DNA of 64,000 bases from Pseudomonas sp. UYIF39 (lineage in GTDB: Bacteria > Pseudomonadota > Gammaproteobacteria > Pseudomonadales > Pseudomonadaceae), in NCBI RefSeq assembly GCF_029963765.1, contig NZ_JALBYU010000016.1:62001-126000 (forward strand), given 5' to 3'. The position numbers were made by a program, and so were the translations under genes. Within the stretch, counting starts at the first letter, position 1, and every line of letters starts with the position of its first letter. The notes under the pieces were generated by a model. The model had not been told where the DNA came from. It searched no databases and worked only from the letters and a program-made list of their open reading frames with translations. Shown here piece by piece: positions 26,058 to 29,426 of the stretch.

Positions 26058-26816
26058 TTACAACCGCTGCACAGTCACCGAACCCGCCGCACCCGCGGCC
26101 CCCGGCTGACCATCAACCCCAGGGCGGCCGTTCTTGCCGCCATCGGCCTTGTAAACGAAACAGCCCTTGGCCTTGCCACCCGCGCCCGGTTTACCGCCAG
26201 GCCCGGCCACACCACCGTCACCGCCGGCCACCTGGACCTTGATCAGTTGCGCAGGGTAATCGCGCGGCACTTCCAGACGAACCAGTGCACCCGGCGCGCC
26301 CGGCTGACCGTCGCTGCCATCACTGCCATCGGCACCACGACCGGCCTGACCCCAGGTACAACCCGGTGCCTGACCGTTGGCCCCATCGAGACCGACGAAA
26401 CCCGGTGCGCCCGCACCGCCGCGAGCGTCCACCAACAACAGCGGCGCACTCAGTGCCTTGATCTGCATGTTCAGGTTACGCCCGGAGCGGGCGGCCTTGA
26501 GGTAGGTCCCCGGCGCGCCGCGAGCCGTAATCTGGCTGCCTTCCGACAACTGCGCACGACTGACCTTCAGCTCAAGCGGCTGTTCGCCGGGTACGATAGC
26601 GATCCGCGCTTCACGACCCAGACGCAATTCACCGACGGATACCTCGGTCACATTCGAGGGAATCAACAACGTGCCGTAGTCGGCCACTTCCAGGCGTTCC
26701 AGCTGCAAGGTGCTGGCGGTGTTGGGCAAACGCATCAGCGAGTTGGTTTCGACGCTCACCACCTGGGCGCAGGCCAACGGGCTGATGAGTGCAGCGAGCA
26801 GACAGAGTTTACGCAT
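26058..26816 (-). CDS. Secreted collagen-like glycine-rich protein
   Basis: 252 residues. Signal peptide MRKLCLLAALISPLACAQ, then about 100 residues of soluble domain with beta-rich character (LEVADYGTLLIPSNVTEVSV). The C-terminal 120 residues contain three glycine-rich blocks with collagen-type G-x-y runs (for example GADGSDGSDGQPGAPG and GRPGVDGQPGAAGAAG) separated by beta-like segments, plus a few cysteines. Function unknown; surface display or an extracellular scaffold is plausible. Its start overlaps the end of the DUF1145 gene, so the two are coupled. Confidence 0.75.
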   Translation of the reverse strand: MRKLCLLAALISPLACAQVVSVETNSLMRLPNTASTLQLERLEVADYGTLLIPSNVTEVSVGELRLGREARIAIVPGEQPLELKVSRAQLSEGSQITARGAPGTYLKAARSGRNLNMQIKALSAPLLLVDARGGAGAPGFVGLDGANGQAPGCTWGQAGRGADGSDGSDGQPGAPGALVRLEVPRDYPAQLIKVQVAGGDGGVAGPGGKPGAGGKAKGCFVYKADGGKNGRPGVDGQPGAAGAAGSVTVQRL

Positions 26817-27087
26817 GGGAAGCCTTAGGCGCGGTCGGAGCCGGGATGGTTTGCAGGTGGAAAACGCCGAAAAAGAGGATCTTCAGGCGATCAAGCCAAG
26901 GGTGAGCGCGACCTCTGAGGCTGCGGAAACAGAACACCGCCTCAAGAAGATGAAGGCATGCCAGCAGGCTACCGGCGAGATCGACCAGCAGATGCAGAGG
27001 ATTGACAAACGGCATGAGCTGATTGACCAGCACCACCAGCCAGAACAGCAGGGTCAACAACTTGCCCAGCCCCCAAAACACATTCAT
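26809..27087 (-). CDS. DUF1145 (YhhL-like) membrane protein
   Basis: 92 residues with three hydrophobic segments (LGKLLTLLFWLVVLVNQLMP, LLVDLAGSLLACLHLLEAVF and LKILFFGVFHL), the DUF1145 pattern. The ATG at 27087 is preferred because a GGTGGAG precedes it, although the spacing is short; a GTG three codons upstream is the alternative. Overlaps the collagen-like gene by 8 bp. Confidence 0.75.
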   Translation of the reverse strand: MNVFWGLGKLLTLLFWLVVLVNQLMPFVNPLHLLVDLAGSLLACLHLLEAVFCFRSLRGRAHPWLDRLKILFFGVFHLQTIPAPTAPKASHA

Positions 27088-27235
27088 TCGCTCCACCGTT
27101 GATAATTATTCTTTGCGCGCACAGTACCGGCTTACACGCGGGATAAGCCAGAGGGCAACGGAAAATTCTTCATGAAGGCCGCCGAATGGCCGCCGGACTG
27201 ACTTCAATTGTGGTCCGACGGCTCTATCACGGGGC

Positions 27236-27952
27236 TCAGCGATTGATGTGCAACTCCACTCGACGGTTTTTCGCCCGTCCTTCTTCCGTTTCGTTATCGG
27301 CCACCGGCTGACTTTGGCCCTTGCCCTCGCTGGTGAGCTTGTTCGGCGTCACGCCCTGACTCAACAGGTAGGCCGCCACGCTACTGGCGCGACGTTCCGA
27401 GAGTGCCTGGTTATAGGTATCCGAGCCGACGCTGTCGGTATGACCGATCACCTTGATGCTCACCACATCGGCGCTTTGCAGTTTCGGCATCAGCGAATCC
27501 AGCTTGCTCTGCGCGGCAGGGGTCAGTTCGGATTGGTTGAAGGCAAACAGCACGTCGCCCGCGTCGCTCAGGGTGATGACCTCCGATTGAGCAGGTTCTG
27601 GTTTCACACTGGCCGGGTACTGCGGCAATGGGCAACCATGATGTTCGACGGGGGTATTGGCCGGCGTATCAGGGCAGCGATCACGTCGATCGAAGACACC
27701 ATCGTTGTCTTCGTCGCCATCCTGGGCGTAACAGATCAAGCCACCGGTCAAGATACCAAGCGCCGCTCCGCCGGCCGCCCAACCGCCACTTTCGAGAGCG
27801 CCCAGACCTCCGCCGACCAGGCCGCCGATAACGCTGCAGATTGGCCAGGTTCGTTGATTGAGGGGGGCGGTGCCATCGCTGTGAGTAGCGCAACCGGTCA
27901 ACAGGCTGCCAAGCAGCACAACCGGCAAGACGGTCCGTGTGAGAACACTCAT
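27236..27952 (-). CDS. OmpA-family lipoprotein with thrombospondin type-3 repeats (paralogue A)
   Basis: 238 residues. Lipobox LLTGC (Cys21); a glycine-rich hydrophobic hairpin (GGLVGGGLGALESGG region); an acidic calcium-binding-type stretch GDEDNDGVFDRRDRCPDTP; and a C-terminal OmpA domain with VIGHTDSVGSDTYNQALSER and AKNRRVELHI. Likely an outer-membrane lipoprotein contacting peptidoglycan. It is closely similar in design to the gene at 28043 just upstream, pointing to duplication. The ribosome site lies in the base of a leader hairpin. Confidence 0.88.
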   Translation of the reverse strand: MSVLTRTVLPVVLLGSLLTGCATHSDGTAPLNQRTWPICSVIGGLVGGGLGALESGGWAAGGAALGILTGGLICYAQDGDEDNDGVFDRRDRCPDTPANTPVEHHGCPLPQYPASVKPEPAQSEVITLSDAGDVLFAFNQSELTPAAQSKLDSLMPKLQSADVVSIKVIGHTDSVGSDTYNQALSERRASSVAAYLLSQGVTPNKLTSEGKGQSQPVADNETEEGRAKNRRVELHINR

Positions 27953-27962
27953 GGTGAAAGCT

Positions 27963-28006
27963 CCTGTGTTACCGGCCAATGCCGGTCACACAGGAGTAAA
28001 GACCCG
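27963..28006 (-). promoter_or_regulatory. Leader hairpin plus conserved box upstream of OmpA paralogue A
   Basis: Reading the minus strand: CGGGTCTTTACT (28006-27995), then a hairpin of two 14-base arms (27994-27981 and 27976-27963, 13 of 14 paired, four-base loop). The 3' arm runs into the AGGAG ribosome site nine bases before the ATG. The same box and a similar hairpin occur at 28749-28791. Confidence 0.6.
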
Positions 28007-28042
28007 CATCAGCGACTGCACAAGCCGCGGAGTACGAGGGGT

Positions 28043-28738
28043 TTAGCGGTTGATTTTGATTTCCGTGCGACGGTTCATCGAGCGGCCGTCAGCGGTTTTG
28101 TTATCGGCAACCGGCTGGCTTTCACCGGCACCGGTAACAGACACGAATTCGCTGCGGGGTATGCCTTGGGAAATCAGGTATTCAACCACCGAGTGCGCAC
28201 GACGATCCGACAGTTTCTGGTTATAGGTATCGCTGCCAACACTGTCGGTGTGACCGGTTACAGTCAGTTGGGCGTTAGGCGCTTCCCCTTTCAAGCGAGT
28301 GGCGATTTTATCGAGTACCACTTTGTCGGCAGGGGTCAGAGTGGCCTTGTCGAACTGGAAGTGAACATCGCGAATGACGATGACTTCTTCTTTAACCACA
28401 ACCGCTTCTTCGACCACTGGCGCAGGCACCGGTGGAGGGCAACCGTCGGCATCGACGCGCACGCCTCTAGGTGTACCCGGGCACTTGTCGCGGCTATCCG
28501 GCACGCCATCGCCGTCTTCGTCGCCATCACCGTGAACCCAGCAATAGGCCGCAGCTGTGCCGCCGACGAGCAGCGCGCCATACCCCGCCCATGCCGAGCT
28601 CTCGGTCGCGCCGAGACCTGCACCCACGACACCACCGACCGCCGCACAGGTCGGCCAGTCGGTTTTCTGCAAACCTGCGCAACCAGTCAACACACTGGTT
28701 AGCAGAACCAAGGGTAATGCTGTGCGAACTATGCTCAT
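28043..28738 (-). CDS. OmpA-family lipoprotein with thrombospondin type-3 repeats (paralogue B)
   Basis: 231 residues. Lipobox VLTGC (Cys20), glycine-rich hairpin (VGGVVGAGLGATESSAWAG), acidic GDGDEDGDGVPDSRDKCPGT calcium-binding-type repeats, and an OmpA domain with VTGHTDSVGSDTYNQKLSDR and SMNRRTEIKI. Same architecture and neighbouring position as paralogue A. It is expected in the outer membrane with its C-terminal domain gripping peptidoglycan. It has the same leader design. Confidence 0.9.
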   Translation of the reverse strand: MSIVRTALPLVLLTSVLTGCAGLQKTDWPTCAAVGGVVGAGLGATESSAWAGYGALLVGGTAAAYCWVHGDGDEDGDGVPDSRDKCPGTPRGVRVDADGCPPPVPAPVVEEAVVVKEEVIVIRDVHFQFDKATLTPADKVVLDKIATRLKGEAPNAQLTVTGHTDSVGSDTYNQKLSDRRAHSVVEYLISQGIPRSEFVSVTGAGESQPVADNKTADGRSMNRRTEIKINR

Positions 28739-28748
28739 CTAGTTTTCT

Positions 28749-28791
28749 CCTGAAGGATCGGCTTAGAACCGATTCAGGTAGTAAAGACCCG
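28749..28791 (-). promoter_or_regulatory. Leader hairpin plus conserved box upstream of OmpA paralogue B
   Basis: On the minus strand the box CGGGTCTTTACT (28791-28780) is followed one base later by a hairpin (28778-28769 with 28761-28749, 10 paired bases with a three-base bulge). Its 3' arm overlaps the AGGAG ribosome site. The box is identical to the one at 27995-28006. Confidence 0.6.
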
Positions 28792-28928
28792 AGTTTTAAT
28801 CTCCGCCAGCAATAGGCCATTGCAGTTTTGACCCGTGTTCACGGCACATCGGCGCTTTTGGGACAAACCAGCTCTAGGCCCGGCCCTTTGAGCAAGCTAG
28901 TCTTGGCAGCTCTGATTGAGGATCTTCG

Positions 28929-29426
28929 ATGATTGCAGGTATTTCTTCGCGCACGCCCCAGCAGGCGTTGGCCGCTTTGCTTGATCTTTATGCCCCCGCG
29001 CGCCTGTTGCTGATTGGCGCCAGCGAGTTCCCCGCGCTTGAGGCCTTCAAGCTGGCGCACCCGGACACTTGTGTTGCCCATGCGGCACCTGGGGCATTGC
29101 CGGCCGAATTGGCGGCGCGCCGGTTTGACCTGGCGCTGGTGGTCGATTGCCTCGAACACTTGCCCAAACGCGATGGCCTGAACCTGTTGGGCGGGATCCG
29201 TAACCTCAACGCCAGTCGCATCGCGGTGCTGGCGGACTTGCCGGCCAGCGGCTGGCAGGAGACCGATTTTTTCTCCCTGGCCCTGCAAGCCAGCGAACGC
29301 TTCCAGCGCGACGATCAAGTGCTGACCCTGTTCACCTATGATCTGCTTGACTACAAACAAGTACCCGACTGGCTTAACTCACGGTTCTGGGCCAATCCGG
29401 AAAACTTCGGGAAATATTGGTGGTAA
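28929..29426 (+). CDS. DUF6231-type protein, methyltransferase-like fold
   Basis: 165 residues. [16 protein letters not shown] and [20 protein letters not shown] resemble the SAM-binding and post-motif regions of class I methyltransferases, but the full motif I glycine pattern is absent. The C-terminus [16 protein letters not shown] is distinctive and typical of a conserved pseudomonad family. Four bases separate it from the YchJ gene, so they probably form an operon. Confidence 0.7.

Follow-up and report, generated by a model that had tools for sequence, protein, structure and literature searches.

Two tandem genes for outer-membrane anchor lipoproteins in Pseudomonas sp. UYIF39, here called A and B, probably each carry their own promoter of one unusual class, while a hairpin ahead of the second gene (H2) would shut its Shine-Dalgarno (SD) sequence in RNA reading through from the first, an arrangement of fold-back insulation. 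Conservation, spacing, pairing and folding energies were compared or computed, and it is from these that we infer promoter activity, start sites, stabilisation and insulation.

The gene pair and its relatives

Within the analysed stretch of 64,000 nucleotides (the window), gene A (28043-28738, minus strand) encodes an OmpA-domain lipoprotein of 231 aa, a peptidoglycan-binding anchor of the PA1041 family (Pfam OmpA, 1.2e-24), and gene B (27236-27952, minus strand) encodes a tandem paralogue of 238 aa from the same family (Pfam OmpA, 5.2e-26). Both proteins exceed the curated cut-off of NCBIfam NF053612 (351 bits for A and 394 bits for B; cut-off 250) and by this sequence measure are PA1041-family peptidoglycan anchors. 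The lipobox of A, read by eye, is LTGC. An earlier description of the two as OmpA/TSP3 paralogues holds for the OmpA domain, but the TSP3 match of A scores 20.9 bits against a Pfam cut-off of 25, and none is listed for B. The best named relatives of protein A, in P. fluorescens H24 and P. mandelii OWC5, share 99% identity with it. Gene B lies 3' of A in the same direction (head to tail), and the upstream neighbour of A in the window is a divergent DUF6231 gene. On the 3' side of the pair (26058-26816, minus strand) lies a gene for a secreted-looking protein with glycine-rich, collagen-like G-X-Y runs, and in L067, L157 and L188 gene A is likewise followed by a protein with a similar start (MRK...SVETNSLMRLP).

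PA1041/Pba of P. aeruginosa, which resembles A and B in belonging to the same protein family, reportedly ties the outer membrane to peptidoglycan, its mutant releasing more vesicles and forming a disordered biofilm (PMC7947798); the word "promoter" is absent from the main text of that report.

The genus sample comprised 119 genomes, 97 of which matched protein A at E<=1e-40. Loci were taken from 96 of these 97 (G008 not among them) and gave 95 A and 67 B hits; two hits that fell short of the protein start, and leaders clipped by the end of a locus, were dropped from the leader set. The family set consisted of 40 hand-chosen stretches from a sample in which the protein was matched in 89 of 148 genomes, and its A and B labels follow the better match, which is no proof of orthology. 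A separate-locus "B" in genus g10, considered as a natural experiment, is the A locus, as judged by the divergent YchJ-like neighbour in L356, and therefore adds no new test.

A conserved box with promoter geometry

The first-pass annotation of this DNA had pointed to an identical 12-mer ahead of both genes, and CGGGTCTTTACT indeed occurs exactly twice in the window, both times on the minus strand (28780-28791 and 27995-28006), and the 6.59 Mb assembly as a whole contains no further exact copy. Tolerating one mismatch raises the total to 18 places (16 beyond the exact two); the reversed control has 21, and near matches are therefore not overrepresented in the genome. The box proposed there is conserved across orthologues in its core GTCTTTACT, which lies on the minus strand at 28780-28788 before A and at 27995-28003 before B and is -10-like in both; the CGG preceding the core varies, and an upstream element at fixed distance had been missed. 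In the genus set, a search of the 75 nt before the start that tolerated up to two mismatches gave an exact core for 83 of 88 A leaders and 55 of 63 B leaders; with a longer flank the counts were 84 of 90 and 55 of 65, respectively. Three further leaders yielded no box at the two-mismatch limit: in L028 B a T is deleted, in L075 B the box has decayed, and in L103 A it stands at a greater distance, about 90 nt ahead of the start. In the family set, 18 of the 33 hits labelled A and 21 of the 24 labelled B have the exact core in front of them.

It is very improbable that the two leaders are alike through duplication alone, with box and stem as relics, as the shared family of the two proteins might suggest, given that the core is kept in loci where protein A drops to 45-50% identity and also precedes unrelated genes (see below).

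Upstream of the core, TGGC occupies offsets -20 to -17 in all 50 representative A leaders, and CTTG occupies offsets -21 to -18 with 97-100% conservation in 36 B representatives; in the window, the corresponding -35-like elements are CTGGCG before A (28804-28809, minus strand) and CTTGTG before B (28019-28024, minus strand). Among exact-core leaders, T[GT]G lies exactly 20 nt upstream in 84/84 A and 55/55 B leaders of the genus set, and at -20 in 18/18 A and 21/21 B leaders of the family set. Since two conserved blocks at fixed spacing with variable sequence between them constitute promoter geometry, the GTCTTTACT box is most plausibly a promoter element rather than an RNA control box, and a box acting only as RNA is disfavoured by the fixed-distance upstream element. 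This comparison favours what had been offered as the last of several alternatives, a promoter box combined with a start-site-proximal stem. Across the 119 genomes, the bipartite pattern CTKG-N17-GTCTTTACT has 149 matches, compared with 22 for the reversed control; outside the family it is not above control (20 vs 31), and one extra-family match common to two genomes (L396, L397) has no nearby gene start.

The promoter class would thus be T(G/T)G-N17-GTCTTTACT or, in sigma-70 terms, TGGCGG or TTGTGC, a 17-bp spacer and TTTACT. Transcription would start about 7 nt past TTTACT, within the 5' arm of a hairpin, either where its inner stem begins or no more than 3 nt short of it; we infer start sites on the minus strand at 28773 (+/-2) for A and at 27988 (+/-2) for B, the latter falling within the 5' arm of H2.

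Which sigma factor might read the class

The -10 hexamer of sigma-70 and RpoS promoters is expected to have A at its second position (-11). TTTACT departs from this rule, with T at the -11 equivalent in 50/50 A and 36/36 B representatives, and a scan of 27100-29000 for sigma-70-type promoters returned no site, two points that count against the promoter reading; RpoS and sigma-70 were set aside as poor fits. With regard to SigX, the OmpA-domain gene at L241 (345 aa), which we take to encode OprF, shows no such motif in the part of its upstream region that was scanned. PMC7641640 describes the consensus of SigX as not precisely defined, and PMC3875570 also reports no discernible consensus before SigX-induced operons. 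AlgU, with the consensus GAACTT-N16/17-TCTNN (PMC7641640), was also rejected: TCTTT fits its -10, but CTGGC or CTTGT occupies the place of GAACTT. The TGATCC-N16-CGTA consensus given for PSPTO_1043-type ECF promoters (PMC5507510) does not match the A and B leaders. The reader of this promoter class would be an alternative sigma factor, or else recognition would be aided by an activator.

Hairpins at the predicted starts

The hairpin before B in the window, CTCCTGTGT-G-ACCGGC(ATTG)GCCGGT-A-ACACAGGAG, folds at -30.7 kcal/mol (z -5.2; 0/200 shuffles as good). As H2 (27961-27996, minus strand) it consists of an outer stem, CUCCUGUGU:ACACAGGAG, over the SD and an inner stem, ACCGG:CCGGU, and its 3' arm contains the SD sequence GGAG (27961-27964, minus strand). 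The hairpin before A, CCTGAATCGG(...)CCGATCCTTCAGG, folds at -15.2 kcal/mol and is not significant by itself (z -1.3; 22/200 shuffles as good). Located at 28749-28778 (minus strand), with an outer part that orthologues do not support, it encloses an inner stem-loop ATCGG...CCGAT (28757-28773, minus strand), and the SD sequence GGAG of A lies at 28747-28750 on the same strand. The expectation that a hairpin follows each box and runs into the SD is borne out as to the hairpins themselves and their 3' arms, which reach the SD in both cases, but the B stem begins inside the box, whose last two bases are paired.

In 38 distinct B leaders, 92.4% of the cells of H2 are paired (89.9 in shuffles; at most 44.4% in slid versions), and its covariation score of 0.093 compares with 0.049 for shuffles (0/500 reach it) and at most 0.044 for slid versions. 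Nine cells in five pairs have changed on both sides, against 1.8 cells in shuffles (0/500 reach the cells, 6/500 the pairs); the count is not specific to the register, as H2 slid by -2 also gives nine doubly changed cells, in six pairs, at 36.3% paired. The A inner stem is paired in 96.5% of cells across 64 distinct leaders (slid versions at most 40.8%) and shows no compensatory excess (one cell; 173/500 shuffles reach this and slid versions have up to 10), hence it is conserved in sequence rather than covarying. When outer arms were swapped between leaders, the A leaders' own arms paired no better than swapped ones (-5.63 vs -5.61 kcal/mol, n=56), whereas those of B did (-14.07 vs -12.54 kcal/mol, n=30). 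By these comparisons, an outer stem covering the SD is well supported only before B. The kept pairing that had been taken for covariation is accordingly supported among B orthologues and not for the outer stem of A. A few B leaders lack both box and pairing (L075, L085, L087 and L116), an outcome that had been named as speaking against the original proposal and that does not hold for the bulk of the leaders. In L107-L112, L375, L395 and L398, each with a single listed family match per genome, the sole leader combines the box with an A-type inner stem.

Relative to the box, the 5' base of the inner stem lies at offset 14-18 in A (63 of 64 leaders parsed) and 16-17 in B (33 of 38 parsed), and a start 7 nt past TTTACT, at offset 15, falls at the stem or up to 3 nt before it in 60/63 A and 33/33 parsed B leaders. 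Because the predicted start is inside the hairpin 5' arm, beside the inner stem, the genes' own transcripts should begin with a stem-loop.

Inverted repeats that overlap predicted starts could also be DNA operators for a regulator acting beside those sites, and the conserved inner-stem sequences of A, with loops of 7 nt in 47 of 63 leaders, would suit that function. Loop length nevertheless varies, from 3 to 9 nt in A and from 5 to 8 nt in B, and the B range argues for RNA and against an operator of fixed spacing; B leaders show G-U pairs as well as compensatory changes. We regard the operator reading as improbable.

Cost of opening the SD and the translational alternative

Own-promoter transcripts of both genes would begin with the short stem-loop, which could plausibly shield their 5' end, and would leave the SD fairly open. 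The DNA 5' of the B start encodes CUCCUGUGU, an arm that only transcripts continuing from A would contain; there it would pair with ACACAGGAG and shut the SD of B; the output of B would therefore depend on its own promoter. The cost of freeing GGAG in B leaders with the exact box (n=30) has a median of 10.3 kcal/mol when the RNA begins at the box (range 5.7-11.0) and 3.5 kcal/mol when it begins at offset 15; for A (n=57) the medians are 4.9 kcal/mol from the box and 2.4 from the predicted start. For the window leaders, the costs from the box and from the predicted start are 9.9 and 3.1 kcal/mol for B and 6.9 and 2.6 kcal/mol for A. In the truncated B RNA of the window, part of the SD remains paired with the beginning of the B coding sequence (the 3.1 kcal/mol), which counts against the fold-back reading.

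Eight distinct B leaders have a changed box. Six of these cost no more than 5.0 kcal/mol to open (L083, L085, L087, L089, L106 and L116), and two (L103 and L121) retain a strong stem; L083 and L089, which lost the stem, carry the box GTCTTTAAT, which also occurs in A leaders. The low computed cost in six of eight, below the range of the exact-box leaders, fits a stem that would serve B only as long as it keeps a promoter of its own, the cases being few and related and the co-loss imperfect.

The pairing of H2 is kept across species and covers the SD, and the scan reported no terminator-like site on the strand along which A and B follow each other head to tail, so that H2 might instead be a true translational switch (a thermometer, or an sRNA or protein target) with a transcribed box, the main B mRNA arising from the promoter of A or from upstream of the box. 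This seems unlikely, as the upstream element at fixed distance in every exact-core leader is promoter geometry, A has the same box without a supported outer stem, Rfam offers no match (cmscan of window positions 27000-29200, 0 matches up to E 1), and an opening cost of about 10 kcal/mol is, in our judgement, much for a thermometer. Post-transcriptional control, as first suggested for both genes, survives in a narrower form, an SD-hiding stem of B alone, which, should the box be a -10 element, would be confined to transcripts that read through from A. The idea of a thermometer or attenuator in particular finds no support, given the missing Rfam match, the perfect C+G-rich anti-SD arm of B and the lack of a reported terminator-like site on the minus strand.

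A second hairpin between the genes

Fold-back insulation, the reading preferred here, might be reinforced by a further hairpin, H1 (28003-28038, minus strand), which lies between A and B, where these co-directional genes have no reported terminator-like site on the minus strand, and surrounds the -35-like element of B. In the window its z is -1.3, weaker than in most B relatives: between the A stop and the B box, the median z is -3.0 in 56 distinct B upstreams, 38 of them below -2, and the same test on 76 A upstreams gives a median of -0.06 with four below -2. The register of H1 differs by clade, and the three registers that were tested cover 59 of 88 B loci; sequences were grouped by best register, which favours pairing in the values that follow. 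The P. putida-like register (14 distinct sequences) has 95.7% of cells paired and 28 double changes versus 9.5 in shuffles (0/500 reach), the fluorescens-like register (24 distinct) 83.7% and five versus 1.6 (0/500 reach), and the third (11 distinct) 98.2% and four versus 1.4 (40/500 reach). H1 persists where the B promoter has decayed (L085, L087) and is without a proper U-run, which counts against the preferred reading. It may curb read-through or protect the 3' end of A; in the former case it would add a possible hindrance to read-through ahead of H2.

The same box before other genes

An initial look beyond the known A/B loci covered 15 places, with a DUF1508 gene 3' of four, a glyoxalase gene 3' of three, further A-like genes (by reading) 3' of four (L255-L258) and nothing clear at the other four. 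Among the best 30 DUF1508 loci of 60 matching genomes, the exact core lies upstream in 25, with one mismatch in one more, and is missing from four. The DUF1508 (YegP-like) gene of the source genome lies outside the window (G000:C7:6064-6402, minus strand; L327), and its box, an exact GTCTTTACT at G000:C7:6442-6450, ends 39 nt before the ATG. Upstream of the glyoxalase gene, found in P. putida-like genomes, the exact core is present in 11 of 18 loci (L295-L303, L305 and L307), five being without it and two unparsed; the gene has no match in the source genome at E<=1e-30. All 11 exact-core glyoxalase leaders have TGG or TTG at -20 or -19. In 15 of the 25 exact-core DUF1508 leaders the -35 place is taken by GGCGAC, not TGG, and DUF1508 therefore backs the -10-like block better than the -35-like block. 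Since the same 9-mer precedes the DUF1508 and glyoxalase genes, a small regulon behind GTCTTTACT is likely on this sequence evidence.

In the source genome, ten loci of 13 OmpA-domain matches were scanned upstream, and the motif was present only at the A/B pair. Another 14 motif stretches not associated with DUF1508 were discarded, 12 lying within or opposite a long reading frame and two (L316, L325) without a nearby gene start. At L129 (G000:C32), the motif is antisense in a large reading frame, which we take to resemble toxin-complex proteins, and it looks like chance. L268, 5' of a DUF1508 gene, contains a 9-bp hairpin (seen by eye) directly ahead of GGGGAG that is not clearly common to other DUF1508 leaders.

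A bolder interpretation, which we put forward only tentatively and consider doubtful as a whole, is that GTCTTTACT with its upstream T(G/T)G serves as promoter for a hitherto undescribed envelope regulon that extends across the family of Pseudomonas and comprises peptidoglycan-anchor lipoproteins, DUF1508 and a glyoxalase, with a sigma factor or essential activator yet to be assigned, and that the second anchor gene sits between two RNA hairpins, deaf to the transcription of its neighbour. A literature search for the core 9-mer gave only unrelated titles among the matches listed, and among the papers listed in searches by locus tag and DUF1508/YegP there was no description of the promoter.

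Relation to known systems and implications

Protection from read-through by fold-back is known from the IS10 transposase gene and phage T4 gene e, which resemble the present case in that the SD-hiding upstream arm is found only in read-through RNA and the gene's own start lies inside the hairpin; here, in contrast, the genes are a chromosomal pair for structural lipoproteins and the start site is predicted. The E. coli ompA mRNA carries a 5' stem-loop that acts as a stabiliser, and the likeness is that an mRNA for an outer-membrane protein has a stem-loop at its 5' end or very close to it, although A and B differ from ompA in gene family and sequence and stabilisation is putative in their case. 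The ISPpu9 transposase of P. putida offers another 5'-UTR structure that hides a ribosome site in a Pseudomonas, but ISPpu9 is described as a mobile element with two sRNAs (PMC8450116). The ROSE-like ibpA thermometers described for Pseudomonas likewise control translation through leader RNA structure (PMC3669281), whereas the A and B leaders of the window have no Rfam match and B has a perfect, C+G-rich anti-SD arm. Judged by title, none of the papers listed in a search on SD sequestration and read-through in Pseudomonas concerns these genes.

The conserved promoter signature provides a handle on the regulator of a tether between outer membrane and peptidoglycan and predicts further members of the regulon. 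The fold-back, if true, would be a chromosomal, non-mobile instance of SD hiding that insulates one of two tandem paralogues.
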